Shown one piece after another: positions 3,821-50,195 of a DNA stretch of 64,000 nt. A model generated the notes under the pieces. It searched no databases, was not told where the DNA came from, and saw only the letters and a program-made list of their open reading frames with translations. The stretch covers positions 260,093 to 324,092 of the forward strand of contig BDSI01000079.1 of the NCBI GenBank assembly GCA_003117195.1, given 5' to 3'. A program made the position numbers and the translations under genes. The DNA comes from Eudorina sp. 2006-703-Eu-15 (Eukaryota > Chlorophyta > Chlorophyceae > Chlamydomonadales > Volvocaceae). Numbering within the stretch: the first letter of the stretch is position 1; each line of letters begins with the position of its first letter.

Positions 3821-5346
3821 TGCTGTGCTTATGCATGTGCCATGACCAGCAGTTGTGTGGTCGCCGACGTGTCGCACGCGTCCACTAATGCCCCTGCTCA
3901 CGCGAGCCCCGTTTGCACCTAGCTACCGATGGGTAGGATATATATACCATGTCCACTTTGGGTCATGCTGCAGTCACGCTCAGCAAAGAAATCCTGCGAA
4001 TACGTAGTTACAGCAGCCGGGAGTGGCGTGCATACGTGCTCAGCAGCACCCCGGTGCATTGCAGTAAAATGTACTATAGTAAACCAGCCAGCCGCATACA
4101 TGGCGCAAGCGTGCGCTGGACAGCTGCTGCTGTGCCACAACGGACAAGCAAGCTCGTGAGCCTTGGTCGGTGCCCCAGCCATCTATTGTTCGCAGATGGG
4201 GATCCGGGGGAATCACTCGGTTGGTATCGATTTGCTAGGAAACTCGCACATGAGGGGGGCAGCCGTGACCCCTTGCGGGTGCGTGAGATACCCGGGAGCG
4301 GGGGCGGTGCGGCTAGGCAACGCCGAGGTAATGGGGCTGGGGGTTTCTGGCCCTGGGAGGCATTCTGGATAGAGCTCTGATGGTGGCTCTCGAGCTCCCG
4401 TCGCCTTCCAAGAATACGGGCAACTGCCGGGACGGGACGGAGCCGGTCTTGGCTGTGGTGGTGGTTCGATAATAGGGGCGCCCCGGTGGCTCACTCCCCT
4501 TGACTGGACCTTGTTCTTGACTGCGACTGGTATCCATACACGAACGGGTTGGCTCACTGGTATCCCTGGTAAAGTGCGTGCGCGGTGTGCTCCGGTGCAC
4601 TTGTGGGGTCCACTGTAACATCAGCTGTGTTAAATAGACTTTCCGCTCCACTGCTGACTGCTCCGAGTGTATGAGTGGCGAGGGTAGCACGGCGGGTCGT
4701 CAACATGCCGTAAAGCCATGTTACGAATTCGGGCGGTTGTATGTGGATGGTCGTTTGGCGCCCATACATTCATGCCACTGGCTCATGCGCGCCACGGCAC
4801 ATGCGTATAATCCACTTGCGTGATATGTGCGCAAGCCGTTACCTTGCACACACTCACAGTACGCGTTCACATGTATGGCATACTATCGATCGGCCATAAC
4901 TCCCCGCGCCGCATCGCCCATCAAACACGCACATCAAACATCGACATTTACACACACGAGCCCGCAAATCAAGCCTGCCAACCAAAAACCATAGCCGCTA
5001 CAATCAGTACGGCTGCTCGGTCAGCTACATACGCACGCCAGCAGTACATGTTCGTCTTCCATCCCCCGCCGCGGCTTGCTTCTTGCAAGAAAAGGAGGCC
5101 TGGAAGTAGCAGCATCCAGCCCGCGCACTATACAGATGAATGAATACGTGTCTTGGATGCTTTATGTATGCATGTATGTACGTGTATATACGTTTATGTA
5201 CGTGCGCCGCCTTGATTCATGCGGCGGTGCATATGTCCCATACATCTGCGTGATGCGCCTAGGTACATATCTACCGATCATATCAAGGAGCTGGTCCAAG
5301 CAAGCTCGCAACACCCTCCACGCACGCACCCACAGCATACACGCGA

Positions 5347-5930
5347 ACACACACACACACACACACACACGGATATACGCCGCCACACACACCCTAGCTA
5401 GCTAGTCTCCCTGCCAATCATTTGCGCTGCGATCGTTTACACGGACGGGCACTGCGCGTATGTAAGTATGTGTGACCGCCTGCCCGCCCGCCCACCCGCC
5501 TCGTGTCCTTGCATCCATCCATCCATCCATCCATCCATCCATCCATCCATCCATCCATCCATCCATCCATCCATCCATCCATCCATCCATCCATCCATCC
5601 ATCCATCCATCCATCCATCCATCCATCCATCCATCCATCCATCCATCCATCCATCCATCCATCCATCCATCCATCCATCCATCCATCCATCCATCCATCC
5701 ATCCATCCATCCATCCATCCATCCATCCATCCATCCATCCATCCATCCATCCATCCATCCATCCATCCATCCATCCATCCATCCATCCATCCATCCATCC
5801 ATCCATCCATCCATCCATCCATCCATCCATCCATCCATCCATCCATCCATCCATCCATCCATCCATCCATCCATCCATCCATGCAACCATCCATCCATCC
5901 ATCCATCCATCCATGCAACCATCCATCCGT
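5347..5930. repeat. unit A microsatellites: short (CA)n, very long (CCAT)n
   Basis: (CA)n occupies 5347-5370 and (CCAT)n occupies 5512-5930, the latter interrupted near its end by two ATGCAACC variants. Both lie immediately 3' of gene copy 1, which is on the minus strand with its stop at 5938-5940. The CCAT tract starts about 8 bp past the stop. On the minus strand a TGTAA poly(A)-type motif occurs near 5435, just beyond the tract, so both the stop and the tract could lie within one transcript. Confidence 0.95.
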
Positions 5931-5937
5931 TATGTTA

Positions 5938-7314
5938 CTAGGCGCCAAAGAGGTACAGCTGGGAGGTGGTGTCGTTGCATTCCCACACCTGCACCTTGGT
6001 GCCCGAGCTCGTGCTACCATTACTAATGTCCACGCACAAGCCCGGCAGCGCCACCGGCTGGATGGTGTACTGCTGGCTGCTGGACCCCGAGGGTGTCAGC
6101 GTGAACTGCTGGCCCGGAGACCCGGACATGCAGTCCAGCAGGTAGATGGGGTTGCCGGCAGCGGAGCTGCTAGAGCCATCCACAGTCAGGCAGTAGCCAG
6201 CCGCGCTCTTGATGTACCAGATGGTGGTGTTGGGGCTTGCACCTGGAGGCATGGATGGGTGCGCACATACGTACTCAAGAAAGGGACGGAGCCGCTGCTG
6301 AGGACACAGCGAGGGATGCGTTTGCGAGTGAGCAAGTCCGTCTACACATCCGTACATACGGCGATGTACGCAGCAAGTACAGCAAGTAGTTCAGCCATGT
6401 GATTACTAAAACTCCGCTCGTTTGCAGCTAGCGGTAAGTTGACGGGTGAGCAAGTACTGCGGGTGCACGCACGCACGCTCGGCCGGTTTACCTATCGTTG
6501 ATTGCATACGCCATGACACACACACGCACACACCTGCTGACGGATAGATGGCAAAGCGCTGCGCCTCAGTGGCTGTGCAGTTCTCCTGGTCCACACCCAC
6601 GCCGACCGACTGGTTGTTGTTCGGGACAGTGATGCAGCCCGTGTAGGCACCGGTGCTGGTGGCGATGGAGACGAACTGGGCGTTGGTGGGAACCACAGCT
6701 GCGGCAGGCAGGCAGGAAGGCAGGCAGGCCGGCAGGCAGCAAGGTAAGTACGGCAGCATGATGAAGTTATTGAAGCACTTGTGCATGTGCACACGCACAC
6801 GCATGCCGCTGTGACACTCTCGTTCACAACTTGATGTATGCCTAGCTAATAATACAGCAAGAACGCATTAATACAGCAATCGGCCGCCATGAATCTTGCC
6901 GCCGGATGTATGCCTACACACACGCACGTACTCACGTCCTGCGTTCTTAGTGTAGAAGCAAAACCCGGGTGCAGATGCAACAGCGGTCAGGGTGTACTTG
7001 ATCCAGCCCTGACTGTTGAAGCCCCTGCACCATGGGTTGGCCTGACAGGCAGCGGCGATGGCGATGACGTCGGTAGTGCCAACATTCTGAATGTCGCCCA
7101 GTGGGTGGTCAACACCGAGGCTGGCGGTGTAGCCGTTGATCCCAATGCACATGGTGGCCGCGAGTCCATTTTGCGTGGCGACGGTGGAACTAGTCACGTT
7201 AGAAGGCGACGATGAGGCATCCATTAAGAGCCTCGCAGCGTGAATTGTCGGCACCAGCAGCAGGAGGAATGGCGCCAGCAGGGAAAGAAGCGATCTCCGG
7301 GACGAGCAAACCAT
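5938..7314 (-). CDS. secreted beta-trefoil (ricin-B-type) lectin-like protein, array copy 1
   Basis: Three exons: 7314-6936, 6698-6534 and 6242-5938. Introns have GTGAGT/GTGTGT donors and GCAG/CCAG acceptors and both are phase 1. The product is 282 residues. Residues 1-27 are a signal peptide with a long Leu core. Residues about 56-125 are a Cys-containing module (C56, C90, C96, C119) with [12 protein letters not shown], faintly like PAN/Apple-type modules. Residues about 130-282 form three beta-trefoil repeats: C148/C167 with QRF 173-175, C199/C219 with QQF 226-228, and C251/C270 with QLY 276-278. These stand in for the QxW motifs of ricin-B lectins. N-glycosylation sites occur, for example NVT at 39. 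It is probably secreted to the extracellular matrix to bind glycans. No ribosome-inactivating A-chain is present. The reading frame is intact. Compared with other copies it has Val2 and Met55, and its upstream TATA-like motif is lost. Confidence 0.8.
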
Positions 7315-7863
7315 GCTCGTCCTTCTTTCTATCGGTTTGCGTTTATCTGGTTACTGCTGTAAGCAGATATGTAACGACTTCTTAATGGTGCTGTCTCGCT
7401 TGCTGCTTAGCAAATCGATGAACAATGAAGTGCTTGTTAAAAGATAACTGTGTATTTGGTGAGGTGAATCAGTGATGTGAAGTGAAGAAATGATGCAGCC
7501 TTGCCGTTTAAGTAGAAGAAATGAAATAATTGTAACTTTAGATAGCAGTACAGATGAACGAGTTAAGGGCGCGCCAGCTTCGGCCATGCGGCGTCTTCCG
7601 TCGGTTGGTTGTTTACGAGTGTGACCGACGGCGGCCGCATCGCGCAAAACTGACCCAAATTAATCACTCAAACCGATTACGAATATCATTCATTGGAAAT
7701 ATGCTTTCATAATTACTAGAATACAAGGATGTTTAATTTGCCATCTTAAAGAGTTGTGCGGACAAGTAGTTTGAGTGTGATGGGCCTGAACCCCTCCGGC
7801 ATCACCAAAACTCGGTATAAGAAATAAGGCATATTTTACTTGGAAGTGATTTGGAAATTGTTG

Positions 7864-8088
7864 TGCTGTGCTTATGCATGTGCCATGACCAGCAGTTGTG
7901 TGGTCGCCGACGTGTCGCACGCGTCCACTAATGCCCCTGCTCACGCGAGCCCCGTGCGAGAGCTATTGCACCTAGCTAGCTACCGATGGGTAGGATATAT
8001 ATACCATGTCCACTTTGGGTCATGCTGCAGTCACGCTCAGCAAAAGTTACAGCAGCCGGGAGTGGCGTGCGTACGTGCTCAGTAGCAC
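7864..8088 (+). repeat. array unit B, left fragment
   Basis: The first 225 bp of a unit match the other units up to GTGCTCAGTAGCAC, with a short internal deletion, then identity stops abruptly at 8088. The unit resumes at 19587. About 1.0 kb that lies between these points in unit C (about 22461-23477) is missing. Confidence 0.85.
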
Positions 8089-8290
8089 ATAGCGGCAAAC
8101 GTCAAACTCTGTCACTTGTCATGGTACAGTGACAGGGTTTAGTGAGGTGTGAGCTCCCAATTAGGTGACGGAGAGCGTTGACGCATCCACACGCCGGCGG
8201 CAGACGCGACCGTCCTCAACGGTCGCCAGTTTGTAATTACATCCGCTTCGATATGACCTTTTACTACCAGTAACAACACTTTAACTCACC

Positions 8291-8967
8291 CTACGGACCC
8301 ACGCGCACTCCACTCCGCACCTTTCGAGCCGAGCCGGGGCCTCCCTCCACCGACGACGACACCGAAACGGAGTAAGGGTCGCGTTTGCTGGCGAAATTCT
8401 CCTCCTCGTCGCCCTCCTCCGCCACCGCAGCAGCAGTCGCTACCGCCACCGACGCCATGCCATGGGCAGACGACGATGCCAGCGCCGACGCCGATGCGGC
8501 GGAGGCGGCCGCTTGCGCAACGGGAGCGTTAGGCGGCGCGCAGCGCCGCCACAACACCAGCCCAGCGGCGGCCGCGATAAGGGCCACCCCGCCAACGATG
8601 CACGCCACCAGCACCCCCGCCTGCCAGGGCTGCAGGTAGGGGCCGCCTTTGCTGCTGGCCGACCCGCCGACCTGGTCGCTGCCGCCGTACACTTCGCCGC
8701 CGAGGACCGGCGGGGAGGCAGGCGCCGGAGGCGACGGCAAGCCGCGAAGTGGTGACGGCCGCGACATCGACGGCGGCGGCTGGGGTGCTGCTGGCAACGC
8801 CACCGGCTGCGGCTGCGGCGGCGTGAGCTTGGGAGGCTGTGGTCCAGACGACTGAGAGGCGGGCGGCAGCGGTGAGGGCCGCTTGGAGGGCGGCTTCGGC
8901 GGGTTGCGGCTGATAATCACAGGCTCTGCGGGCAGGTCGGGGTACATGCCGCCCGGGTTGGAGGCGT
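8291..8967 (-). other. terminal exon: Pro-rich stalk, membrane helix, short tail
   Basis: The acceptor GCCGACAG precedes 8967. The frame joins exon 9388-9294 at phase 1, giving a TSAD-TLDASNPGGM junction. The exon runs through PP/SP-rich sequence, a 24-residue hydrophobic helix followed by WRR (stop-transfer), and about 85 cytoplasmic residues. A consensus donor GTGAGT lies 4 bases after the stop codon. This hints that the ancestral exon may have continued into further coding exons now lost beyond the array breakpoint at 8088. Confidence 0.6.
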
Positions 8968-11900
8968 CTGTCGGCGGAGGGCACGCAGGGAGCGGCGGTC
9001 GGGGTTCGTGTTGCGCGCATGCAAGGCATCTGCGCATCTCCCGGGGAGCGTTGCAGGGCCGGCTCGGCGGATGGCTCCAGGGCGGGCTCGCGGCGCAGCC
9101 ATCCCGCGGCAGCCAAACGCCGAAAGCCTGCGGCTCCCCAACCAGCGCTCGTGCGGCCGTGCCCAAGCTGTTAGTGGTTACCCCCAGCTCCCGCGCACCG
9201 GAACGACCGGGTGTTGACTGGGGTGTGGGGCCAGCAGCTGAGACAAGGCACAGGGGCGGGACGGCAGTACGGTAGCCGCAACTCCGGGCTCACCCAGGGT
9301 GTCCGCCGAGGTGATGCGGACGTTCACGCCGCGCACTCCCCGGTGTGCCAGGCGCCTCCAGCACCAGCACGTAGCCGTCCACCCAGAACTGCATCAGCGG
9401 AGGGGTGGTGAGAGCAAGCCACCAGGGCGGAAGGGGGAGCGGGAAGAAGACCGAATTTGCCGTGCTGGCAAGGGGAGGGGGGTGCAGCGGCGAAGGGCGC
9501 CAAGGGCACCAGGGGTCGAGCGAAACAGGCGAGAGGTGAATGCGGATGGAGAAGCGCCGGGAGGCGGTCCATGGACACAGACTCGCGCGGCGCAGGTGTC
9601 GTCTCCTTTGCAGTGGAGGTAGCACCCACCCACCCGCCCACCCACCCGCCCGCCCACCCGGCCCCCCACCCGCCCGCCCGCCCACCTACGGTATCCCCAC
9701 CCACCCACCCGCCCACCTATCCCCACAACGGAGGGCGATGAGGTGTGCATATGGCCAAGGGCGCCACCGCATTCCGGCGTTCTGCCCCCCTCATCCACCC
9801 AACCACCCGACCCACCTCTGAGGCCACCAGCATCTCCGCCAGCGCCGCCACCGCGCCGGGGCCCAGGTACAGCCGTGTCCCCAGCGCCTCCGCCTCCCGC
9901 TGCGCCACGATGCCCGACAAGCGCTCCACGGCGGAGCCCGCACTGGCGTCGCCTCCATCATGTCGTTCGCGAAGCCCAGCAGCAGCTTGACCTCCGCGCT
10001 GGGGGCCACGATGAGCACGTCGCGCAGGAAGAGGCGCTTCTGCGCGGGGGGAGAGAGGACGGGAGGGCGGCGTGAACGGCGCGGGAGGGGGCCCGCGCGG
10101 GCGTCTGATTGCTTCCCCAGGAGTGTCGATGTTTTTGTCGCTCTGTCGTTCAAAGGGGTCCCAGCGGCAGGTTTGAGCTGTGCGGGCGGCCTGGCGACCT
10201 TGAGCGGTCAAGGACGGTTGGGTGACAGGCTCTATTCGGCGGTTGCTCGGCGGGGGCGGCGCATGGCGATGGCGCTGCCAACCACCGAGGCAGGTAACGG
10301 AGCCCACAAACCACATCCGCGCGCGCCCACATCCCCCACTCCGCTCTCCAGCCACTACGCTGACCCAGCCGCCCCTCAACGCCCTGGGCGCCGCAGCCGC
10401 AGCGCACCTGTCAAACTCGAACGCCAGCAGCGATACGGACGGCATCCAGAACTGCTCCTCCTTCATCTTTGTCCCGCCGCTGTCGCCGACGCCGCCGTCG
10501 CCACCATACGGGCCAGCTGGTGGCGCCTCGGCGGCATCGCCGCTGCCGCCGCCTCCATCTCCGCCTTCGCCCGCCCAGCCGCCATTGTCCGAGGAGGAGG
10601 AGGAGGAGGCAGCAAGCGCGCTGCGGCGCAGCCCCCTGCCACCGCCCTCCCCCGTCGGCTGCTTTGGGCCCCCCACCACCTCAGCGGCCACGTCCGGTCG
10701 CGGCGGCGCGGCCGGGGCCCGACATCCCCAAAGAACATCGGCGGCGGCGGTGCCGGCGGCGGAGCCGCTCCGCCTATAGAGGACTCCACCAGGGAGACGA
10801 GCGCTGAGTCGCCGCCGCTGCCATCCCCACCTCCATTGCCAAGGCCGCCGCCGAGGCCTCCCAGGCCAATGGTTCCGTTCGCCAGGTTGGTGATGATCAG
10901 GCGGCGCAGCGCGATGCAGGCGCCTCCGGCCCCAAAGCTGACCGCCGCGTCCAGGCCGCCCAGGTCAAGCGTGGTGGGACTCCAGGGGTGGCCCATGAGG
11001 GTCACGTTGGCGGCCAGCGGCGCGCCCGTCAGGAACTCCGAGGCGGCGGCGCCGGCCGCCGACACCGCCGCCCGCCGCAGGCGCGCGTTCGAGCGGATAA
11101 ACACCGGCACTGAGCTGGAGGCGGCGGCGAAGATGGAGGAGGCGGGGAGGGGGTCGGGCGGCGACGGAGGCGCCGGGGGCGGCGACGGAGGCGCCGGGGG
11201 CACAGCGCCGAAGGCGGTGGACCAGCTGGATGGGTCGATGTCTTCCTGAGGAAGCGGAAAGAAGGTACGGATGGTACGGAAAGCAGTTGCCGGTGCCAAG
11301 GGATGAGCAGCCTGTGCAGGATGTGAAGAATCATTGCGCGCCATGAAACGCCGGATGGTGGACACGGGACGCGAACGGACCGGCAAGAAGAGGGTGTAGG
11401 CCAGGAGCGGCATTCCGCTACTGTGGCGGCTGCCGATAAGCTACGGGTGGCGACGGGTATATCCCGCAGGCCGTGAACGACAATCTCCGGCGTGTTGCGC
11501 CGCTGGCGCGTGCCTTACGCGTTGCCGCCAAACCCCCACCCAACACATCACACGTATTCCCCTCCTTTGCATTACATAGTCTCAGCCCACCCCACCCCAA
11601 CCCACACCCCATCACCGCGGCGCAGCGTCTGCGAGGCTTCGTCGGCTCCCACCATCCGCCCCGTTACCGCGGGGCCGCACCTGCACCTGCACAACCCGGA
11701 CCTCGCTAAGCGGCGTCGCCCCCGAAGCTGCAGCTGCCGGCCAGGAGTCCACGGATGAGCCATCGGAGCCCGAGGCGGACCCGGTCATCATGACGTCGGG
11801 CGGCGCCGCCATCCGCATCAACCAATCCTCCATAAACTGAGGCCCCGAAGGACCAGGTGGCGGCGGCGGCGGCGACGGGGGCGACGGCAGCAGCGGGGCC

Positions 11901-14900
11901 GGCGGCGGCGGCGACGTCGGCGGAGGATTGAGTGACGGCGGGTGCGGCGGTGACGGCTTCGGTGGTGGCGGCGGCTTCGATGGTGGCGGCGGCGCCGGCG
12001 ACGGCGGGACCCGCGGGAACGGCGATGAGTGCGGCAGCAGCGGCGGCCGTGGTGGCGACGATGACTGCGGCCGAGGCAGCGGCGCGGGCGCTCCAGGCGG
12101 AGAAGGGGCATGCGGCGGACTGCCGGCACCGCCTTTCTGGGTGAGTCTGGAGGAGGCGTCGGCGCCGTCGGGTCCCTTCGGCCCCGGACCCGAACACGGG
12201 GCCGGTGTTGCCCAGAAGTTCAGGGGCCTCGGTAAGCAAGGTGTCAGCATCTGACGGAGGCGGACCGCCATCGCCTCCGTCCGCGCGGCTGCCGCCACCT
12301 CCCTCACCCTCCACAGAGGCGGGCGCTGGCGGCGTGCGGTCCCGGCCACCTCCGGACGGCGGCGCCAGCGGCGGGCCGCCGCCTCTTGCGGCTCCGTCAT
12401 CACCTGGGCTGGAAGACGCTGGCGGCGGCGCCTCCTGGCCGCCTCCATCGGCTGAGGTGGCGCCGGGCCTTTGACCGGGGCCATCGCCTGGCCAGGATGC
12501 CGGGGTCGGCAGCGGCGGCTGCGGAGGCGCCGCCGCTGGGTCTTCACCGTCGGGCGTCGAGGCGCCGGGGGCTCGCAGCGTGACGCGGTCCAAGAAGATC
12601 GCGTTAGAGTGGGCGTCGGGGTCCGAATATCCCAGTAAGCCGAAGCGCACGGCCGGTGGTGTCGGGCCGGGAGGGAGCGCGCCAGCGTCTGGCGCATCGG
12701 GCGGAGGCGGAGGCGCGATGACGCCGTCGGGGCTGTCCATGACCTGCCCGGGACGGTTCAGGGCATGGGATGCTCGCGGCGGGATGCGCATATGCATGTA
12801 TGTACGTATGATGCAAGGTGTGTGAGCCCCTCAGGCTCAACCTTCCGACTAAGCGGTGTCCTAGGCCGTGCGAATTCGGCTCATCAACTGAGCCCAAACT
12901 CCACTCCTTGGCAGCGAACCTTAATCATATGCCATCGGCCCAGCTCAACAGATGGTGGTGGTGGTGGGGAGTCAGACCGAGTCTAGACCCGGATTTGCCA
13001 TCTCATCGACGAGTGTGTAACTGCTTGAACTCCCTGACCTTGGACACCTGTGTCGTTAGGATGCCAACAGCGTCGCGAACGGCCACACAACTGAAAGGCG
13101 CGCGACTCGGCGTACGCGAGCGGCGACTTCATTCCCTTGTATTCGGCACCTTGCCCATGTTTTCCCCAGGCCGGCCAACGGCGCCCGCCCAGCATCTCCG
13201 GTCCCGCCCGTACGGCCTGTTACGGCCTTGACCGTACCCAGCAAGAAGGTGCGGTTGAACCATGCTCCCCAGACGGGGTCCCACAACCGCGACAGCGCGG
13301 TGCTCCAGTACGACACCTCGTCGGCCGAGACCGTCAGGTTGCAAGCCACCATCTGTACGAGCGCCATCTTCCCGAAGCGCTTCTGGATGCCCATGGCGGT
13401 CCTGTGCAGCGACGACGGCGTCGCGCCGGCGACCGATCGGACGAGGCAGGGGTTGCGGACCGGGCGGCGGACGGCGGTAAGTGTGGTGTCATGCGATGAC
13501 GAAGAGGTAAAGAGGTGGGGGAAGACGTGGCTGTGGTTGGCCATGTGGATGACGATGGGACAAGGATGACGGTGGGGTGCGAGGGCTCCGCGGCGCCAGC
13601 CCGATCCTATGCCAGGCTAAGGACCCAACCGGCCACAGCGGGCGGCCGCCGTTGTAGCTGCACACGACCGCCATGGGCATCCAGAAGCGCTTCGGGAATA
13701 TGGCGACCTGCTCACCCGTCGGCGCCGAACGACCAGCCCAGCGCGGTCAGGAAGCCCGAGGGGCCTGTCTCCGGCCCGCCAGCTGCCAGGCCGGTGACGG
13801 TGAGGTCCTGTACGAACATGACCACGTTCACGAAGTCGGCGGCGCTGCTGGCGTCGAAGCCCGCGGCCGGCTCGGAGTACATCAGCTGGAACGGCTGGGG
13901 CAGGCCGCCCAGGTCGAGCGTGGCGGGGCCTGCGGCGCAGGAAGCGACCAGGGTATGGGTGGGCAAATGAGGCACGACAAGCGAGGCGCGGCATGAACAG
14001 AGCAGGCGGCGACACGAGCAGCTGCGGGGGAGGGTTTGGTCTGAAATGTGAAACCGGGGGGAGGGGGTTGCAGGATCCTCTTTTTCCACGGCGACCCGAT
14101 GGGTGCTTGCTGTGGCGGGCGCGGCTACCGGTACCCTGTCAGCCGGGGAGGTGCGGGGAGGTGCGGCCGACGGTGGGCAGGGAGACGCAAACGCTGGGGG
14201 GTGGAAGACCATCCCAACGCGGAAACCGCCGCGCCGGGGAGTGCGGCGCATAAGCTTTGCCCCACCCCCCACGGCCCTCAAAGCTCTCCCAGGCTCAGTA
14301 CGGTAACCGTACTGACCCATCAGCCGCACGGCTCGCCGCACTGGGATCATCTGTCGCTGCCGCGTCCCGTTTCCGCCCGCCGCCGCCGCCCGAGTTTCCG
14401 CCAGCGAGATCCGCCCCTGCAGGAACAGCCGGAACTCCGTCTGGTCGTAGCTGAGGTCGGGCGACACCAACTCGCCATCCACCAGCGCCAGCTCCTCGCC
14501 GCTGCGGACCACCGCGGTGCAGCTCAGCGGGAAGTCTGGCATCGCGTCGTCGCGCCCCGACGACGCGGCGCTGCGACGGGAGGAGGAGGCGGTGCTGAGG
14601 TGCCAGGCGTCCCTTCCCACGCCTGAGGCAACCGCATCAGAGCGCGACGCGGCGCCCTCTCCGGCTGTTGCGGCCCTTCTCCGCGCAGCCTGAGAGGCGG
14701 CGGCGCCTGCAGGACTGCGGCCACCTCCAGACGACCCGCCGGAGAACGACATGGCGGCGCGGCGCGGCGGCGGCGGCTGGCGGCGCCTGCGCGTCCCCGT
14801 CGTCGGCGCCGGCGCCGGTGACGGCGGCGACGGCGACGGCGGGGTCGTGCTGGTGCAGGACAAGAAGACGTCCACGGCGTGGTAGGATCCGACGGAGAGG

Positions 14901-16578
14901 CTCCGGATGTGGGTCACCCCGGGGAGCACCTAGGATGGGGCACGAGTGGGGCATGAGTGGGGGGAGGGGCGAGTAGGGTCACGCATGCTTCCCGGTGCCA
15001 GGCTGGGTGAGCTTCACCTCAGCGGTCTCGGGGAGCCGGTGGCCGGTGACCCTCTCCGATGGCCCTGCCTGCCGGGGGCCCTAGGGTCGGCACTCGGCAG
15101 GGCCATCGGGCGTGCGTGCTCGCCCTGCAATAACTGCCCTCCCTCCCTGCCCGTCCGGCCCCGCCGCCGCCTTCCGCGGACAGATGCATGCAGGTGCATC
15201 GATCCTGGCACCCCACGCGCCCATACACAGCCGTATCCCGCATTAGGCGCCCGGTAGGTGCATGAATGACCCAGCCGCCTCATCCGCCGCGATCCGCGCG
15301 AGTCGCCACAGCGCGCACCTTTATGGTCCCCAGCAGCCTCTCGTAGCAGACCCGGGCGCGTACTCTCTCCAGCAGCTTGCAGCTGGGCAGCACCAGCGTC
15401 ACGTTGACCAACTCCACCCGGCAATCGGTCAAGCTGGAAAGCAGCGCCGCGGAGTCCGCGAAGGCCAGCGGCAGCAGCTCTTGCAGCTGAGTGGTGGCGC
15501 CCAGGGTGCTGACGCCGGCCGAGCTTGATGACGGCAGCGGCGTCAGCGTCAACCCCGTAAACTTTACGGTGCTGCCTGTAAGAAAGGAGGGGAGTGAACG
15601 TAAGATGGCTAGACGGGAGGCGCGTCCTGGCGTCGCAGCAGCCGCGCACTATGGTCGGTGCGAACCCATGACTCGGTAGAGATGTCCCGTGGCGCGATGC
15701 CGCGCGCCGCGGGGCGGGGTGGCCGATGGCAATTTGTTGATAGTGCAATGCATGGGGAAATTCCATCACGAGGCCCTCCCGGGACGTAGTCGACCAAACG
15801 GCGAAGTGTGGTATGAAACTGCCAGGCAGGTTAATGCCAGGACCCCACCCGCGGCTGTTATTACCGCGACATGGGACCGCTCGGTTCTTATCGGCGTCAG
15901 GTGGTAACCCAGCTGTTCTAAGATACGGTGATGGGTGAATGCTAGGCCAGCACACGCGGGAGGACCGCGGACGCACGTCGCGACTTGCCTCCCATGATGC
16001 GCAGGCGCGGTGTCGTGCTGTCCGGCGCCGCGCCCATGCGCGGCCAGGCAGGAGGCCCGCGGTAACCCGCCGGGTGTGGCCAGGGTAAGGAAGGGGTTAC
16101 CGACTATCAGCGTGCGATCAGGCAGCTTCACGGCGGCGCCTTGAGCGGCGAGTGTGATGCCCCGCTGCAGAGGCAGGATGCGCGGGAAGGGGGCCCGAAA
16201 CCTCGTTGAAGTTGCGCGGATAGAAGCGACGCACCTTGATACACGGTTTGAACGAAGGAGACACGTGTTGGAAGGCCGCATTCGGTTTGCCGCAAAGGGC
16301 ATCGCTACCAAAATTTGTGCAGGGCGCGTACCTGACATTGCATATCACGAATGAGCTTGGACCAGGAATACCTCCTCCGCAGTAACTGGAAAGGAAATCG
16401 TTCGTTGTGATAGTACCAGCTGTTTGCAGCGCCACAGCTGCGCAATCAACAAAATGGCTAGTATCCAGGCACGACGCGAGCCAACACCCATCATCGGAGG
16501 ATATTTGGCAAACTCTCATCCCGAGGTTCCGAAGAGCATACAAGTAACTGACGTTTGGGACGGTGAAAGAGGTTCCGA
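8291..16578 (-). CDS. large Pro-rich single-pass membrane protein gene with beta-helix-like ectodomain modules (possibly broken)
   Basis: Multi-exon gene reconstructed from splice sites. Clearest exons: 16578-16332, 15575-15319, 14929 to about 14345, 13929-13716, the Pro-rich block about 12740-11690, an exon starting near 11248, an exon ending near 10410, 10039-9816, 9388-9294, and the last exon 8967-8291. Ectodomain modules repeat motifs such as TLDLGGL followed by an I/V-rich strand and LTITGLA-type stretches, and a Cys-rich VNVTLVLPSC module. This resembles the ectodomains of large volvocine receptor-like proteins. The last exon encodes a Pro-rich stalk, one membrane helix (starting AGVLVACIVGG) and a short Ala/acidic tail ending in a stop. 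No kinase follows. Two 1-base frame breaks are visible, in 10039-9816 (near 9962) and in 9388-9294, from conserved-looking sequence on either side. The 5' end is not resolved. It may be a pseudogene or contain sequencing indels. Confidence 0.5.
11690..12140 (-). other. Ser/Pro-rich rod (hydroxyproline-rich type) within the membrane protein gene
   Basis: The minus strand reads a long run of SPPPP, PPSPAPPPP and KPPPPPKP-type motifs followed by the globular segment FMEDWLMRMAAPPDVM. Such rods are the hallmark of volvocine cell-wall and matrix proteins such as pherophorins, where prolines are hydroxylated and glycosylated. This gene lacks a recognisable pherophorin domain, so I do not call it a pherophorin. 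Confidence 0.6.
13365..13703. repeat. 46-bp inverted duplicate (arms 13365-13410 and 13658-13703)
   Basis: The plus strand at 13365-13410 matches the reverse complement of 13658-13703 at 44 of 46 bases; the spacer is 247 bp. The coding sense of the right arm on the minus strand reads IFPKRFWMPMAV, so the left arm carries an antisense copy within the same gene. This is a local inverted duplication or inversion scar. Confidence 0.85.
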
Positions 16579-17149
16579 CTGTGCAATAGGGAAGGCGTTA
16601 ATGCTGTTCGACGCCGTCCTGGGACACAGCGATGAAAAGCCCGAGACCCAAGAAGCTGCACCAACGGTTAGGACCGTCCTTCCACCACTGACGATGGCAA
16701 AGCGAACCGTGGATTTGTTTTCTGTATCAGGATAAAGGCAATTCTAGCTGAAGAATGACTGAACCAGGCCGACATAGAAGTACAACGACGACCCCGAACC
16801 GTGACCCCGAACTAATGCAGTTACAGGTGTCAAGTTATTTAAGAGTAGCCACTGGCAACGGAGGTTCTTTTGAGTGCATGTTTGGTGCGCGGGCGCACTG
16901 GAGCTCGATGGACGAAATTTGTACGATGCAGCAGCGCGAATGGGCTCAGCACCCGCAGCATGCAAGCCTCCAGCGGACAGAAGACGGACATGCAAACGGA
17001 CAAAGGTAACTAATATCAATACACTGAACTTCTCGGCGGGATTTATGTAGCTCGCTATGGGGGCGCTGTTACAAGGATAATGTGAGCAGCAGCATGCAGG
17101 TGACTATCCGCATCTTCTGCATCTACTAGGAGGGTGCACACACCCTAAC
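16579..17149. other. no supported gene
   Basis: Minus-strand open frames near 16.6-17.0 kb could hold the unresolved 5' exon of the membrane protein gene (one begins with a hydrophobic stretch near 17019), but no joinable splice pair or family motif was found. Nothing else recognisable. Confidence 0.4.
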
Positions 17150-17650
17150 ATGACGGCGCTGTTCATCAAAAGGCACAACACAGCAGTTCAAACGGTTGCT
17201 AAGCAGCTGGCCACTGGAAGGTACGGAGGTTGCTATATGATTATGGACGCGGGGCCGCACACCAGCAGCCCGACTAATCCTCTGGAACACGAATGCCGGA
17301 ACACGAATGCCGGCGTGGATGCTCCCCAACACGCCGGAGGAAAACCGGGGGAAAATGAGACCTGACATCCTCTTCATACCCGGCCTACCCCTTGCAGCAG
17401 CGAAACAGACAGGATATGCTGGGCCAGACGTGCAATCTGACTACACTGTGCACATCATTGAGATAGGATACACCTCCGACACAAACCATACAGCAAAACA
17501 GAACGCTTAAGCACAGCAGCACGCCCAACTGGCAAATGAGCTGGAAGCTGCGGGCTGGAAAGTGCGCTACACAGCGCATGCAGGACGCTATCAGCCTAGG
17601 ATTCGCAGGCACCATCAGGAAAGACCTGGCGCATGCCGGACATTGTCGTA
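17150..17650 (+). pseudogene. decayed retroelement-like coding remnant
   Basis: Three consecutive plus-strand pieces read as one decayed protein in three frames. 17150 to about 17290 contains RYGGCYMIMDA. 17307-17507 contains RPDILFIPGLP and IIEIGYTSDTNH. After a TAA at 17508 the same frame continues with QLANELEAAGWKVRYT. Then a shift into the third frame gives ISLGFAGTIRKDL near 17586-17625. I associate this motif order with the C-terminal region of multicopy, probably retroelement-encoded proteins in volvocine genomes; this is recollection, not a search. At least one stop and two frameshifts make it non-functional. Confidence 0.4.
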
Positions 17651-18657
17651 TCGGGTGTCGTACAGGCTCAGTTCGGTGGAGGATTCTGGTTCCTGAAAGC
17701 ACCCATCACTGGCGTCAACACGTGAGTAGTGATGTGCGCACATTTGTTAGCTGGCTGAAGAAATATGTTCAGTTATGCATTTCTGTACCCCACACAGTTT
17801 GGACATGACAGGCACCCTCACACACTGTAATGCACAGTCAGGATCCATGCGTTCCGTGCAGTCTGGCTCACAGCGGTCTGAGTGCTTTCCAATTGTGTCC
17901 AATCGTCAATCCTCAGGTGCCGATGCAGCGCTTGCACGCCCAGCTCTAACAGGGTCTTTCGAGTGCTGGCCCCACTAATTACCCTCAGGGCACCCTAGCC
18001 CCGTGGGGATCAAAGAAAAATCAGCCCCGTGGGGAGCCACCCACCAGTGCTTCAAACCTCCACGGCTACTGCCACTCCGGCAACATCATGGACTACCGTT
18101 CAGCACCAGCACGGCTGCGACAGCCATGCGAATGAAGTGAGATGCTGCTTACGCAATGAGCGGCCCAGGGCCGTCAGATAGGGAGCCACGACTGTGTCAG
18201 AGCTGGCCCAAATTGCCTCGCCTGCCTGCAGGAAACACGCCCTGGTGCCGGGTGCTCCTAAAACCCCCACCACGTTCCTTAACTTGCTGCCCTCAGCCTT
18301 CCAGCGGAGCTCGAACTGCGCCCCAACTCAGCCCCCTTCTCCCCTAGGTCCCCTGTCCCCTGTCGCCCTGCACCTGCAAGCAACGAGCCCTAGGTGACGC
18401 AAGACCACGTAAGCTGGCACACGTCTGTGCTAGCTGCTGCTCATCTGCGCGTACATGGGTCTCCCGATTTTCGTCAGCTTCCGCAGCAGGGGGCAGGAGG
18501 TAGCAGCGGGTGGCGCGACCCTTCTGCGGAAGGCAGAATGAGAAACAATAGGCAAGACAATTAATGTTGAGAGGCCCACAATCTTTCAGCCAAGCGCTGC
18601 AATTCCGGTTCACCCGCTTTTCCACGCAACCCCGCTCCTCCTCCGCAGTTACGTACC
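17651..18657. other. no supported gene
   Basis: Short overlapping frames only. A duplicated AGCCCCGTGGGGA string occurs at about 17997-18009 and 18023-18035. Nothing else recognisable. Confidence 0.4.
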
Positions 18658-18660
18658 TTA

Positions 18661-19035
18661 CGGCTTGAACACTTTCCAGAGAGCCGCGGCCATGGTCCCG
18701 AGCGGGCTCTCGGGAGTGACGCTCAGAAGCACCCCCGCCAGCAGGAGAAAAAGGTAAAGCCGCAGCTCCTTTATGTCCTCCTTCGTTGCAACGCTGGAGT
18801 TTGATGGGTCAAAGCTGGCTGGGATGGCGTCAGCGTGCGCTTCGGGAATCCCAGCCGAGATGAGCTTTGCACGCGTTTCCACAACAGAGCCCGCGGCATC
18901 TGGTGGCAACGCCTTGGACGTGACGCACATCCGACGCTGCGGCCGTTCGTGAGCGATGAGCACACAGCAGGGGGTTGCTCTGCCTCGAGCCAGGGTAGCA
19001 GGATAGCAGGGCCTCATCTTAGAGGCCAGGTACAT
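18661..19035 (-). CDS. small DUF1640/CCDC90-like membrane protein, candidate
   Basis: A 125-codon open frame starts with ATG at 19035 and stops just upstream of 18660. The middle contains a stretch like the DUF1640 (CCDC90/MCUR1-related) pattern: a short helix with GIPEAHADAI, then VATKEDIKELR, then a hydrophobic helix (LYLFLLLAGVLL) and a short C-terminus. DUF1640 proteins are usually longer, with a coiled coil ahead of a C-terminal membrane helix, and many are mitochondrial. Here the coiled coil is nearly absent, so it may be a truncated paralogue or a last exon. The basic, hydroxylated N-terminal 50 residues could be a targeting sequence or untranslated. Confidence 0.35.
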
Positions 19036-19081
19036 TGGTAACTATCTAATAATATAGGAAGCGGATTGCTACAAGGAGGAC

Positions 19082-19267
19082 TTAGCCGCGGTGAGACCCG
19101 GACTTTGGGCCATCGGAACTGGAGAACTCGTTGGCACTCAGTACGCTATCCCTTTGCATCTTGAAACTACATATTGTTGAGTTGTATTCATCTGGCAAGA
19201 CAGAAAGGCAAATCTTGATGTTGGTGGTATCTTGATGTTCAAACATCAGAACACTATCGAAGTTCAA
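19082..19267 (-). pseudogene. possible Ty1/copia gag-like fragment
   Basis: A 61-codon minus-strand frame contains a SVLPDEYNSTICSF motif followed by a LSANEF stretch. This recalls the LPxEY...LT(L)NE pattern in the gag UBN2 region of copia-type retrotransposons. No other copia domain (protease, integrase, RT) is seen nearby. This is a weak call. Confidence 0.2.
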
Positions 19268-19546
19268 TTTAGCACGCGCCGCCCATTCCTAATCCAAGTA
19301 TTCATCACGCGGCACCTGTTGCAACAAACATGAGCGCGAGAGGCGTTGGGTGGATGTTGACTCGGGTCCATGGAGACCGCGGAGCTTTACTTTGACCGTT
19401 TGTGCGCAAAGAATTTTTTTCAGCCAAACCAAGAATACCTTGCAATAGAGGACAATTAATATGACAAACATTGCGAATTAGTTTAGCGGATAATGAACGT
19501 TTTGCCGTTACCGGACACACGGACACAGGGACACAGGGACACACGG

Positions 19547-19588
19547 GGGCGGGGCCCCCCGAACGCGCTTCGCGCTGGGGCCCCGCCC
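19547..19588. repeat. GC-rich hairpin at the right edge of the foreign segment
   Basis: GGGCGGGGCCCC (19547-19558) pairs perfectly with GGGGCCCCGCCC (19577-19588). The 18-base centre also contains a GCGC-TTC-GCGC mini-palindrome. Array sequence resumes at the very end of the right arm. GGACACA/GGGACACA repeats precede it (19513-19544). It may be a mobile-element end or a break-prone palindrome. Confidence 0.8.
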
Positions 19589-19942
19589 AAAAACCATAGC
19601 CGCTACAATCAGTACGGCTGCTCGGTCAGCTACATACGCACGCCAGCAGTACATAATCGTCTTCCATCCCCCGCCGCGGCTTGCTTCTTGCACGAAAAGC
19701 AGGCCTGGAAGTAGCAGCACCCAGCCCGCGCACTATACAGATGAAAGAATACGTGTCTTGGATGCTTTATGTATGCATGTATGTACGTGTATATACGTTT
19801 ATGTACGTGCGCCGCCTTGATTCATGCGGCGGTGCGTATGTACCATACATCTGCGTGTTGCGCCTAGGTATATACCGATAAAATCAAGGAGCTGGTCCAA
19901 GCTCGCAACACCCTCCACGCACGCACCCACAGCATACACGCG

Positions 19943-20213
<271 letters not shown>

Positions 20214-20342
20214 ACACACACACACACACACGGATATACGCCGCCACACACACCCTAGCTAGCTAGTCTCCCTATCCATCCATCCATCCATGCAACCATC
20301 CATCCATCCATCCATCCATGCAACCATCCATCCGTTATGTTA

Positions 20343-21716
20343 CTAGGCGCCAAAGAGGTACAGCTGGGAGGTGGTGTCGTTGCATTCCCACACCTGCACC
20401 TTGGTGCCCGAGCTCGTGCTACCATTACTAATGTCCACGCACAAGCCCGGCAGCGCCACCGGCTGGATGGTGTACTGGCTGCTGGACCCCGAGGGTGTCA
20501 GCGTGAACTGCTGGCCCGGAGACCCGGACATGCAGTCCAGCAGGTAGATGGGGTTGCCGGCAGCGGAGCTGCTAGAGCCATCCACAGTCAGGCAGTAGCC
20601 AGCCGCGCTCTTGATGTACCAGATGGTGGTGTTGGGGCTTGCACCTGGAGGCATGGATGAGTGCGCACATAGGTACTCAAGAAAGGGACGGAGCCGCTGC
20701 TGAGGACACAGCGAGGGATGCGTTTGCGAGTGAGCAAGTCCGTCTACACATCCGTACATACGGCGATGTACGCAGCAAGTACAGCAAGTAGTTCAGCCAT
20801 GTGATTACTAAAACTCCGCTCGTTTGCAGCTAGCGGTAAGTTGACGGGTGAGCAAGTACTGCGGGCGCACGCACGCACGCTCGGCCGGTTTACCTATCGT
20901 TGATTGCATACGCCATGACACACACACGCACACACCTGCTGACGGATAGATGGCAAAGCGCTGCGCCTCAGTGGCTGTGCAGTTCTCCTGGTCCACACCC
21001 ACGCCGACCGACTGGTTGTTGTTCGGGACAGTGATGCAGCCCGTGTAGGCACCGGTGCTGGTGGCGATGGAGACGAACTGGGCGTTGGTGGGAACCACAG
21101 CTGCGGCAGGCAGGCAGGAAGGCAGGCAGGCCGGCAGGCAGCAAGGTAAGTACGGCAGCATGATGAAGTTATTGAAGCACTTGTGCATGTGCACACGCAC
21201 ACGCATGCCGCTGTGACACTCTCGTTCACAACTTGATGTATGCCTAGCTAATAATACAGCAAGAACGCATTAATGCAGCAATCGGCCGCCATGAATCTTG
21301 CCGCCGGATGTATGCCTACACACACGCACGTACTCACGTCCTGCGTTCTTAGTGTAGAAGCAAAACCCGGGTGCAGATGCAACAGCGGTCAGGGTGTACT
21401 TGATCCAGCCCTGACTGTTGAAGCCCCTGCACCATGGGTTGGCCTGACATGCAGCGGCGATGGCGATGACGTCGGTCGTGCCAACATTCTGAATGTCGCC
21501 CAGTGGGTGGTCAACACCGAGGCTGGCGGTGTAACCGTTGATCCCAATGCAGATGGTGGCCGCGCCTCCATTTTGCGTGGCGACGGTGGAACTAGTCACG
21601 TTGGAAGGCGACGATGAGGCATCCATTAAGAGCCTCGCAGCGTGAATTGTCGGCACCAGCAGCAGGAGGAATGGCGCCAGCAGGGAAAGAAGCGATCTCC
21701 GGGACGAGCAAGCCAT
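20343..21716 (-). CDS. ricin-B-type lectin-like secreted protein, array copy 2
   Basis: Exons 21716-21338, 21100-20936 and 20644-20343; frame intact, 281 residues. It has one Gln fewer than copy 1 in the SSSQ(Q)Y stretch of exon 3, and GG in place of GL in the QNGLAAT stretch. All trefoil cysteines and QRF/QQF/QLY motifs are kept. A TATA-like CTATATATCTTTTAA lies about 120-130 bp upstream of the ATG. Confidence 0.8.
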
Positions 21717-21832
21717 GTTCGTCCTTCTTTCTATCTGTGTGCGTTACTGCTGTAAGCAGATATGTAACGACTTCTTACTGGTGCTGCTGTCTCGCTTGCT
21801 GCTTAGCAAATCGGTGAACAAAGAAGCGCTTG

Positions 21833-21848
21833 TTAAAAGATATATAGC
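21833..21848 (-). promoter_or_regulatory. TATA-like element of lectin copy 2
   Basis: On the minus strand CTATATATCTTTTAA precedes the ATG at 21716 by about 120 bp, with a well conserved leader in between. The same element occurs at the same place in copies 3-9. Copy 1 has the shorter CAGTTATCTTTTAA there and no TATATA. Assignment is by motif and position only. Confidence 0.4.
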
Positions 21849-22794
21849 TGTGTATTTGTTGAGGTGAATCAGTGATGTGAAGTGAAGAAATGATGCAGCC
21901 TTGCCGTTTAAGTAGAAGAAATGAAATAATTGTAACGTTAGATAGCAGTACAGATGAACGAGTCCAGGGCGCGCCAGCTTCAGCCATGCGGCGTCTTCCG
22001 TCGGTTGGTTGTTTACGAGTGTGACCGACGGCGGCCGCATCGCGCAAAACTGACCCTAATTAATCACTCAAACCGATCACGAATATCATTCATTGGAAAT
22101 ATGCTTTCATAATTACTAGAATACAGGGATGTTTAATTTGCCATCTTAAAGAGTTGTGCGGACAAGTAGTTTGAGTGTGATGGCCCTGAACCCCTCCGCA
22201 TCACCAAAACGCGGTATAAGAAATAAGGCATATTTTACTTGGAAGGGATTTGGGAATCGTTGTGCTGTGCTTATGCATGTGCCATGACCAGCAGTTGTGT
22301 GGTCGCCGACGTGCGTGTCGCACGCGTCCGGTGCCGCACGTGCGTGTAGGATATATACCATGTCCACTTTGGGTCATGCGGCAGTCACGCTCAGCAAAGA
22401 AATCCTGCGAATACGTAGTTACAGCAGCCGGGAGTGGCGTGCATACGTGCTCAGTAGCACCCCGGTGCATTGCAGTAAAATGTACTAAAGTAAACCAGCC
22501 AGCCGCATACATGGCGCAAGTGTGCGCTGGACAGCTGCGGCTGTGCCACAACGGACAAGCAAGCTCGTGAGTCTTGGTCGGTGCCCCAGCCATGTATTGT
22601 TCGCAGATGGGGATCCGGGGGAATCACTCGGTTGCTATCGTTTTGCTACGAAACTCGCACATGAGTAGTGGGGCAGCCGTGAACCCTTGCGGGTGCGTGA
22701 GATACCCGGGAGCGGAGGCGGTGCGGCTAGGCAACGCCGGCCGAGGTAATGGGGCTGGGGGTTTCTGGCCCTGGGAGGCATTCTGGATAGAGCT

Positions 22795-23130
22795 CTGATG
22801 GTGGCTCTCGAGCTCCCGTCGCCTTCCAAGAATACGGGCAACTGCCGGGACGGGACGGAGCCGGTCTTGGCTGTGGTGGTGGTTCGATAATAGGGGCGCC
22901 CCGGTGGCTCACTCCCCTTGACTGGACCTTGTTCTTGACTGCGACTGGTATCCATACACGAACGGGTTGGTTCCCTGGTAAAGTGCGTGCGCGGTGTGCT
23001 CCGGTGCACTTGTGTGGCCTATCCGGTGCGCCAAGGTGGCGCAGGTTCTTTCCTTTTGCAATGTGTGGGGCGGAGGCTGCGGCTGTCGCCGATGACCCGC
23101 GGGGTCCACTGTAACATCATTAGTGTTAAA
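22795..23130 (+). repeat. dispersed repeat R inside the unit (representative copy)
   Basis: The segment from TGATGGTGGCTCTCGAGC to GATGACCCGCGGGGTCCA is also found, more divergent and inverted, at 52612-52940. A fragment of it occurs at 57955-58045. Shared landmarks in order are GATGGTGGCTC, AATAGGGGCGCCC, GGTGGCT, a TTTTGCAATGTGTGG-like stretch and the end GATGACCCGC(G)GGGTCCACTGTAA. It is present in every array unit (for example 4378-4640, 26594-26934). It is probably an old non-autonomous transposable element. Confidence 0.6.
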
Positions 23131-30328: not shown

Positions 30329-45529
<15,201 letters not shown>

Positions 45530-47099
45530 TGCTGTGCTTATGCATGTGCCATGACCAGCAGTTGTGTGGTTGCCGACGTGTCGCACGCGTCCGGTGCCGC
45601 ACGTGCGTGTAGGATATATACCATGTCCACTTTGGGTCATGCGGCAGTCACGCTCAGCAAAGAAATCCTGCGAATACGTAGTTACAGCAGCCGGGAGTGG
45701 CGTGCATACGTGCTCAGTAGCACCCCGGTGCATTGCAGTAAAATGTACTAAAGTAAACCAGCCAGCCGCATACATGGCGCAAGTGTGCGCTGGACAGCTG
45801 CGGCTGTGCCACAACGGACAAGCAAGCTCGTGAGTCTTGGTCGGTGCCCCAGCCATGTATTGTTCGCAGATGGGGATCCGGGGAATCACTCGGTTGCTAT
45901 CGTTTTGCTACGAAACTCGCACATGAGTAGTGGGGCAGCCGTGAACCCTTGCGGGTGCGTGAGATACCCGGGAGCGGAGGCGGTGCGGCTAGGCAACGCC
46001 GGCCGAGGTAATGGGGCTGGGGGTTTCTGGCCCTGGGAGGCATTCTGGATAGAGCTCTGATGGTGGCTCTCGAGCTCCCGTCGCCTTCCAAGAATACGGG
46101 CAACTGCCGGGACGGGACGGAGCCGGTCTTGGCTGTGGTGGTGGTTCGATAATAGGGGCGCCCCGGTGGCTCACTCCCCTTGACTGGACCTTGTTCTTGA
46201 CTGCGACTGGTATCCATACACGAACGGGTTGGTTCCCTGGTAAAGTGCGTGCGCGGTGTGCTCCGGTGCACTTGTGTGGCCTATCCGGTGCGCCAAGGTG
46301 GCGCAGGTTCTTTCCTTTTGCAATGTGTGGGGCGGAGGCTGCGGCTGTCGCCGATGACCCGTGGGGTCCACTGTAACATCATTAGTGTTAAATAGACCTT
46401 CCGCTCCACTGCTGACTGCTCCGAGTATATGAGTGGCGAGGGTAGCACGGCGGGTCGTCAACATGCCGTACAGCCATGTTACGAATTCGGGCGGTTGTAT
46501 GTGGATGGTCGTTTGGCGCCCATACATTCATGCCACTGGCTCATGCGCGCCACGGCACATGCGTATAATCCACTTGTGTGATATGTGCGCAAGCCGTTAC
46601 CTTGCACACACTCACAGTACGCGTTCACATGTATGGCATACTATCGATCGGCCATAACTCCCCGCGCCGCATCGCCCATCAAACACGCACATCAAACATC
46701 GACATTTACACACACGAGCCCGCAAATCAAGCCTGCCAACCAAAAACCATAGCCGCTACAATCAGTACGGCTGCTCGGTCAGCTACATACGCACGCCAGC
46801 AGTACATGTTCGTCTTCCATCCCCCGCCGCGGCTTGCTTCTTGCACGAAAAGCAGGCCTGGAAGTAGCAGCACCCAGCCCGCGCACTATACAGATGAATG
46901 AATACGTGTCTTGGATGCTTTATGTATGCATGTATGTACGTGTATATACGTTTATGTACGTGCGCCGCCTTGATTCATGCGGCGGTGCGTATGTACCATA
47001 CATCTGCGTGTTGCGCCTAGGTATTTACCGATAAAATCAAGGAGCTGGTCCAAGCAAGCTCGCAACACCCTCCACGCACGCACCCACAGCATACACGCG

Positions 47100-47719
<620 letters not shown>

Positions 47720-47729
47720 CGTTATGTTA

Positions 47730-49106
47730 CTAGGCGCCAAAGAGGTACAGCTGGGAGGTGGTGTCGTTGCATTCCCACACCTGCACCTTGGTGCCCGAGC
47801 TCGTGCTACCATTACTAATGTCCACGCACAAGCCCGGCAGCGCCACCGGCTGGATGGTGTACTGGCTGCTGGACCCCGAGGGTGTCAGCGTGAACTGCTG
47901 GCCCGGAGACCCGGACATGCAGTCCAGCAGGTAGATGGGGTTGCCGGCAGCGGAGCTGCTAGAGCCATCCACAGTCAGGCAGTAGCCAGCCGCGCTCTTG
48001 ATGTACCAGATGGTGGTGTTGGGGCTTGCACCTGGAGGCATGGATGAGTGCGCACATAGGTACTCAAGAAAGGGACGGAGCCGCTGCTGAGGACACAGCG
48101 AGGGATGCGTTTGCGAGTGAGCAAGTCCGTCTACACATCCGTACATACGGCGATGTACGCAGCAAGTACAGCAAGTAGTTCAGCCATGTGATTACTAAAA
48201 CTCCGCTCGTTTGCAGCTAGCGGTAAGTTGACGGGTGAGCAAGTACTGCGGGCGCACGCACGCACGCTCGGCCGGTTTACCTATCGTTGATTGCATACGC
48301 CATGACACACACACGCACACACCTGCTGACGGATAGATGGCAAAGCGCTGCGCCTCAGTTCTGTGCAGTTCTCCTGGTCCACACCCACGCCGACCGACTG
48401 GTTGTTGTTCGGGACAGTGATGCAGCCCGTGTAGGCACCGGTGCTGGTGGCGATGGAGACGAACTGGGCGTTGGTGGGAACCACAGCTGCGGCAGGCAGG
48501 CAGGAAGGCAGGCAGGCCGGCAGGCAGCAAGGTAAGTACGGCAGCATGATGAAGTTATTGAAGCACTTGTGCATGTGCACACGCACACGCATGCCGCTGT
48601 GACACTCTCGTTCACAACTTGATGCATGTATGCCTAGCTAATAATACAGCAAGAACGCATTAATGCAGCAATCGGCCGCCATGAATCTTGCCGCCGGATG
48701 TATGCCTACACACACGCACGTACTCACGTCCTGCGTTCTTAGTGTAGAAGCAAAACCCGGGTGCAGATGCAACAGCGGTCAGGGTGTACTTGATCCAGCC
48801 CTGACTGTTGAAGCCCCTGCACCATGGGTTGGCCTGACAGGCAGCGGCGATGGCGATGACGTCGGTCGTGCCAACATTCTGAATGTCGCCCAGTGGGTGG
48901 TCAACACCGAGGCTGGCGGTGTAACCGTTGATCCCAATGCAGATGGTGGCCGCGAGTCCATTTTGCGTGGCGACGGTGGAACTAGTCACGTTGGAAGGCG
49001 ACGATGAGGCATCCATTAAGAGCCTCGCAGCGTGAATTGTCGGCACCAGCAGCAGGAGGAATGGCGCCAGCAGGGAAAGAAGCGATCTCCGGGACGAGCA
49101 AGCCAT
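47730..49106 (-). pseudogene. lectin-like gene, array copy 9, frameshift in exon 2
   Basis: Exons 49106-48728, 48486-48323 and 48031-47730. Exon 2 is 164 instead of 165 bases: CTCAGTGGCTGTG of the other copies reads CTCAGTTCTGTG near 48357, a base loss plus a substitution. This changes the first trefoil repeat between C167 and the QRF motif. Exons 1 and 3 are normal. Confidence 0.68.
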
Positions 49107-49653
49107 GTTCGTCCTTCTTTCTATCTGTGTGCGTTACTGCTGTAAGCAGATATGTAACGACTTCTTAATGGTGCTGCTGTCTCGCTTGCTGCTTAGCAAA
49201 TCGGTGAACAAAGAAGCGCTTATTAAAAGATATATAGCTGTGTATTTGTTGAGGTGAATCAGTGATGTGAAGTGAAGAAATGATGCAGCCTTGCCGTTTA
49301 AGTAGAAGAAATGAAATAATTGTAACGTTAGATAGCAGTACAGATGAACGAGTCCAGGGCGCGCCAGCTTCAGCCATGCGGCGTCTTCCGTCGGTTGGTT
49401 GTTTACGAGTGTGACCGACGGCGGCCGCATCGCGCAAAACTGACCCTAATTAATCACTCAAACCGATCACGAGTATCATTCATTGGAAATATGCTTTCAT
49501 AATTACTAGAATACAGGGATGTTTAATTTGCCATCTTAAAGAGTTGTGCGGACAAGTAGTTTGAGTGTGATGGCCCTGAACCCCTCCGGCATCACCAAAA
49601 CGCGGTATAAGAAATAAGGCATATTTTACTTAGAAGGGATTTGGGAATCGTTG

Positions 49654-50195
49654 TGCTGTGCTTATGCATGTGCCATGACCAGCAGTTGTGTGGTTGCCGA
49701 CGTGTCGCACTCGTGCGTGTAGGATATATACCATGTCCACTTTGGGTCATGCGGCAGTCACGCTCAGCAAAGAAATCCTGCGAATACGTAGTTACAGCAG
49801 CCGGGAGTGGCGTGCATACGTGCTCAGTAGCACCCCGGTGCATTGCAGTAAAATGTACTAAAGTAAACCAGCCAGCCGCATACATGGCGCAAGTGTGCGC
49901 TGGACAGCTGCGGCTGTGCCACAACGGACAAGCAAGCTCGTGAGTCTTGGTCGGTGCCCCAGCCATGTATTGTTCGCAGATGGGGATCCGGGGGAATCAC
50001 TCGGTTGCTATCGTTTTGCTACGAAACTCGCACATGAGTAGTGGGGCAGCCGTGAACCCTTGCGGGTGCGTGAGATACCCGGGAGCGAAGGCGGTGCGGC
50101 TAGGCAACGCCGAGGTAATGGGGCTGGGGGTTTCTGGCCCTGGGAGGCATTCTGGATAGAGCCCTGATGGTGGCTCTCGAGCTCCCGTCGCCTTC
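49654..50195 (+). repeat. array unit J, truncated end of the array
   Basis: The first 542 bp of a unit, ending inside repeat R at CGTCGCCTTC where other units continue CAAGAAT. No gene copy follows. Confidence 0.9.

Follow-up and report, generated by a model that had tools for sequence, protein, structure and literature searches.

Concerted evolution is an established phenomenon in tandem gene families: head-to-tail units are kept alike inside each array, but separate arrays diverge. The three-repeat beta-trefoil is a feature of the CBM13/R-type lectins (PF00652; e.g., the Streptomyces xylanase CBM13 1knl and ricin-type lectins). We describe a locus that shares both features, in a little-known protein family of the volvocine alga Eudorina sp. 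2006-703-Eu-15. The stretch analysed, hereafter the window, comprises 64,000 nucleotides of contig BDSI01000079.1 (C79:260093-324092) in a genome of 181.2 Mb and 3033 contigs, and it carries an array (array A) of a gene encoding a cysteine-rich (Cys) module followed by a trefoil. Copy numbers throughout are as assembled, and positions without a contig name are those of the window. The explanation that we favour, with a probability of about 60%, is a lineage-specific tandem amplification with concerted evolution of two arrays and selection on the protein, which would likely be secreted and bind glycans at the cell surface or in the extracellular matrix. As far as it was accessible, the literature on lectins, lectin arrays, and gene conversion in Chlamydomonas and the volvocine algae, PMC6704257, PMC6362431, and PMC10066295 included, gave no account of this array or gene family.

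Comparing the window with itself by BLAST recovered a unit of ~3.8 kb at 3821, 7864/19587, 22263, 26067, 30329, 34087, 37926, 41768, 45530 and, in part, 49654. Exon searches found nine complete exon sets, all head-to-tail on the minus strand, with start codons at 7314, 21716, 25520, 29782, 33540, 37379, 41220, 44982, and 49106. The nine-copy array proposed by a sequence-only reading of the window is thus present in the assembly. Units 2-9 are 94.2-99.5% identical (median 98.5%) over 39 aligned pieces longer than 600 bases, whereas 23 aligned pieces between unit 1 and the others are 92.3-99.0% identical, gaps being counted in both cases. Unit 1 (3820..8040, minus strand, delimited by self-BLAST) is a divergent edge unit, in which similarity to a second array (array B, see below) reaches ~8040. 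The homogenised body of array A (19587..50195, minus strand) holds eight genes and a truncated tenth unit from ~49654, and unit 2 is split by ~11.5 kb of other sequence (8041-19586). The near-identity that the same reading attributed to all units therefore applies to units 2-9, but unit 1 is divergent and unit 2 interrupted.

Array B lies at C79:369.8-389.2 kb, ~60 kb beyond array A. Its copies, four of them full and two partial, are 98.9-99.5% identical within the array, and the frame is intact in each of the full ones. A genome-wide search for the gene at the protein level (138 of 160 candidates scored) found a dispersed paralogue at C60:300096-301650, intact and with a frame one codon longer than that of array B, and a match to a fragment of exon 1 on C146. 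We then compared gene regions, from 600 bp upstream through the stop codon, counting substitutions only. Units 2-9 of array A differ by 0.05-0.56% and array B copies by 0-0.46%, unit 1 differs from the other eight units by 1.6-1.8%, and the two arrays differ from each other by 6.0-6.4%. Identity within arrays thus exceeds identity between them, the pattern that defines concerted evolution. Of the 45 informative-site pairs among units 2-9, 15 are incompatible with a single tree (5 of 21 when three sites at the alignment edge are left out), which supports exchange between units, as deduced earlier from their likeness. We propose that unequal crossing-over and gene conversion would keep each array uniform while letting the two drift apart from one another.

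Some of these units could have been repeated by the assembler, leaving fewer real copies. Tandem repeats are hard to assemble with long reads of ~20 kb or less, and contig C1472 (15.4 kb), with four units of which one has an intact frame, is close to the window units. The differences of C1472 are mostly gaps rather than mismatches (in one example, 7 mismatches and 24 gap openings over 7.4 kb), so that it is probably a redundant, poor-quality second version of the window units, and we did not count it as four additional copies. Yet the units of array A differ by substitutions, by insertions or deletions (indels) of 39, 18, and 4 bp, and by microsatellite length, which argues against plain assembly duplication, and neither unit 1 nor array B can be mistaken for the other units. 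We have mostly rejected duplication by assembly alone, and consider such inflation of the copy number very unlikely.

The gene has three exons (378-382, 164-165, and 301-305 bp), with GT donors and AG acceptors in all nine copies of array A, all on the minus strand. The frame is uninterrupted in four: copy 1 (5938..7314; exons 6936-7314, 6534-6698, and 5938-6242; 282 residues), copy 2 (20343..21716; exons 21338-21716, 20936-21100, and 20343-20644; 281 residues), copy 3, the reference (24144..25520; exons 25142-25520, 24740-24904, and 24144-24448; 282 residues), and copy 4 (28391..29782; exons 29404-29782, 28984-29148, and 28391-28692; 281 residues). Frame-changing indels affect the other five. 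A single-base deletion breaks exon 1 of copy 5 (32168..33540; exons 33163-33540, 32761-32925, and 32168-32469), and exon 1 of copy 6 (36000..37379; exons 36998-37379, 36596-36760, and 36000-36304) has a 4-bp insertion and a single-base deletion. Copy 7 (39887..41220; exons 40842-41220, 40479-40643, and 39887-40187) lacks one base of a G run in exon 3, as do copy 8 (43645..44982; exons 44604-44982, 44237-44401, and 43645-43945) and one copy of C1472. Copy 9 (47730..49106; exons 48728-49106, 48323-48486, and 47730-48031) has a single-base deletion in exon 2. The expected three-exon gene is therefore found in every full unit, but only four of the nine can be read through as assembled.

Part of these breaks probably reflects uncorrected consensus errors of long reads. 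All ten clear single-base indels outside simple repeats in units 2-9 are, by majority, deletions; six affect G or C homopolymers of four or five bases, three a GG or CC pair, and one an A, and four of the ten fall in exons. This count excludes three one-base rows of the alignment (one split 4:4, one at the alignment edge, and one within a microsatellite). A candidate source assembly (Eudorina sp. female) was made from PacBio RS II reads with short-read mapping for correction, according to the accessible part of its description (PMC6123790). Other breaks may be genuine, as the shared exon-3 deletion and the 4-bp insertion of copy 6 suggest.

Broken frames in five of nine copies of array A and in three of the four on C1472 are also what neutral, repeat-driven amplification would leave behind, with unequal exchange between the units' own repeats, most copies decaying, and few of them mattering. 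A long AC tract occurs in eight of the nine units, and the spacers of units 3-9, as well as part of unit 1, contain a stretch matching a dispersed repeat (22795..23121 in one of them; at least 20 places outside the lectin arrays, 74-81% identical, with 40 of 1867 candidates scored). The frame break common to copies 7 and 8 and the C1472 copy is what duplication of an already broken copy would produce. Against this, the frame is intact in the C60 paralogue and in all four full array B copies, and the deletion-only single-base indels point to consensus errors. The ratio of nonsynonymous to synonymous substitution rates (dN/dS) is 0.20-0.33 for the pairs A-B, A-C60, and B-C60, which indicates that selection acts on the protein. 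We thus judge purely neutral amplification unlikely, and retain amplification with concerted evolution and a selected product.

The similarity to the C60 copy is confined to exons. Array A differs from it by 7.9, 3.0, and 1.0% in exons 1-3, by 34% and 45% in the introns, and by 33% in the 500 bp upstream (global alignments, in which some intronic sequence may not be alignable at all). The 52% difference in the first 400 bp past the stop codon is uninformative, because microsatellites bring the difference there to 43% even between array A and its own unit 1. At four-fold sites, the differences in exons 1-3 are 11/70, 1/32, and 1/54 for A-C60 (Fisher test, exon 1 versus 3, P=0.012; versus 2+3, P=0.003), 9/71, 3/32, and 1/54 for B-C60 (P=0.042 and 0.085), and 6/75, 2/32, and 0/54 for A-B (P=0.040 and 0.15); these tests were picked after the pattern was seen, and the P values are uncorrected for their number. 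The GC content at third codon positions rises from 0.69 to 0.80 and 0.85 across exons 1-3, and this stronger codon bias towards exon 3, together with codon constraint, could be an ordinary cause of some of the synonymous gradient. Exon-limited conversion between the array and the C60 copy is possible. That this exon-only, 3'-biased homogenisation was templated by spliced RNA or cDNA seems improbable to us: we saw no intronless copy, and the protein matches listed in the genome-wide search break at or near exon boundaries, neither of which lends support to such a template. No paper came up in a literature search for conversion that is restricted to exons or mediated by cDNA.

The encoded protein is small and would pair a PAN/apple-like module, to judge from its predicted fold, with a ricin-B/CBM13-type trefoil. 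Profile searches confirmed the full three-repeat trefoil anticipated by the sequence-only reading, with PF00652 (E 3.4e-19, 69.7 bits, cut-off 29) and PF14200 (55.5 bits, cut-off 25.6) both above curated cut-offs. Exon 2 encodes repeat 1 and exon 3 the other two, and all three can be aligned with their counterparts in the Chlamydomonas relatives. The third repeat retains an Asp, a Gln, and a Trp that we take to be sugar-pocket residues of ricin/CBM13 proteins, whereas the Asp is replaced in the first two. As also noted before, the N-terminus resembles a signal peptide when judged by eye, and the product is probably secreted. There are six N-glycosylation sequons, one of them within the linker ahead of the Cys module.

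The Cys module itself is less unfamiliar than first described. Its predicted fold is most similar to PAN/apple domains, and it matches at least 61 other places of the Eudorina genome; the module of the window protein gave no curated Pfam PAN match. A dense cluster of exons with the same Cys module, together with one SRCR-like exon (E 8.5e-5, 23.3 bits, under the Pfam cut-off of 26.1), lies at C19:135-165 kb (including C19:138500-148499), where two of four related modules match PAN_4 weakly (E 0.23 and 0.27; 12.0 and 11.7 bits, cut-off 27). An expansion of SRCR and C-type-lectin genes is described for Edaphochlamys debaryana in the accessible part of PMC8226300.

We found one protein of this architecture in each of three other algae, Chlamydomonas schloesseri, C. 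incerta, and E. debaryana, and on that comparison the amplification would be lineage-specific. The C. schloesseri (HYH02_011971, 42% identical) and C. incerta (HXX76_001973) proteins share the two domains and show no sign of an array, although the N-termini of these gene models are possibly cut. Structure prediction of the full-length C. schloesseri relative gave no usable model (pLDDT 31). The same relative reaches 22.3 bits with CDtoxinA (PF03498, cut-off 22), a name that we rejected since this protein scores 71 and 94 bits with the ricin-B profiles; for the window protein, PF03498 is absent from the matches at E <= 1. The E. debaryana protein (HYH03_017858, 36% identical over 224 residues) has, like the window protein, the module and then a three-repeat trefoil, but unlike it carries an AA15-LPMO-like domain in front. 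This relative and the retained pocket residues of repeat 3 are the grounds on which we propose a glycan-binding role.

With the domain pair found behind an AA15-LPMO-like domain in E. debaryana, the product may instead act outside the matrix, as a defence, prey-binding, or bacteria-binding lectin or as an auxiliary binder for polysaccharide-degrading enzymes such as AA15 LPMOs. The AA15-LPMO-like genes are themselves multicopy in the Eudorina genome, and the clustering of related modules with the SRCR-like exon would also fit. Conversely, though not decisively, the one amplified LPMO-like locus that was read continues into a Cys-rich stretch and not into the module and trefoil pair. We hold such a role to be a tentative alternative, short of an even chance, and still prefer glycan binding at the cell surface or in the extracellular matrix. 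One AA15-LPMO-like exon has at least 26 matches on 20 contigs (88 of 292 candidates scored), namely C319, C331, C436, C605, C728, C739, C854, C947, C1131, C1149, C1218, C1441, C1459, C1735, C2012, C2150, C2207, C2328, C2851, and C136; five contigs have two or three each, ~9-19 kb apart. The locus at C436:9600-13600 leads on into a Gly/Thr linker and the Cys-rich stretch. LPMO_10 (PF03067) had no match in the Eudorina genome, and a literature search for AA15 LPMOs in green algae found no paper.

The remaining features of the window lie within or around the array. The interruption of unit 2 (8041..19586) contains minus-strand proline-rich open frames at 8.3-16 kb, of which seven were scanned without a Pfam match at E <= 0.01; one has a membrane-anchor-like hydrophobic stretch. 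Its right end is a high-copy dispersed repeat (~19280-19594) with at least 39 other copies, 92-96% identical (40 of 870 candidates scored). A 354-bp tandem repeat of 4.1 copies marks the right edge of array A (50226..51671); its sequence recurs at the left edge (3159-3819) and in partial copies elsewhere in the genome. Farther right, 63087-63545 (minus strand) encodes a partial membrane transport protein (PF03547, E 2.3e-6), the family to which PIN-type carriers belong. The window has no match to RNA families at gathering scores.

If the genes are transcribed and their product secreted, the locus would show that the dosage of a glycan-binding protein of the cell surface has changed strongly and recently, possibly to the benefit of the alga; we found few other members of its family. 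Two neighbouring arrays, each homogenised on its own, offer a natural measure of exchange rates, and the exon-only likeness to the C60 copy is a testable anomaly. Compared with CBM13/R-type lectins, the window protein lacks the Asp in repeats 1 and 2 and has an N-terminal module of PAN/apple-like predicted fold. Compared with tandem genes under concerted evolution in general, the head-to-tail units show the same pattern within and between arrays; what sets this locus apart is the combination of two neighbouring arrays with a dispersed copy that resembles them only in exons, and most in exons 2 and 3.
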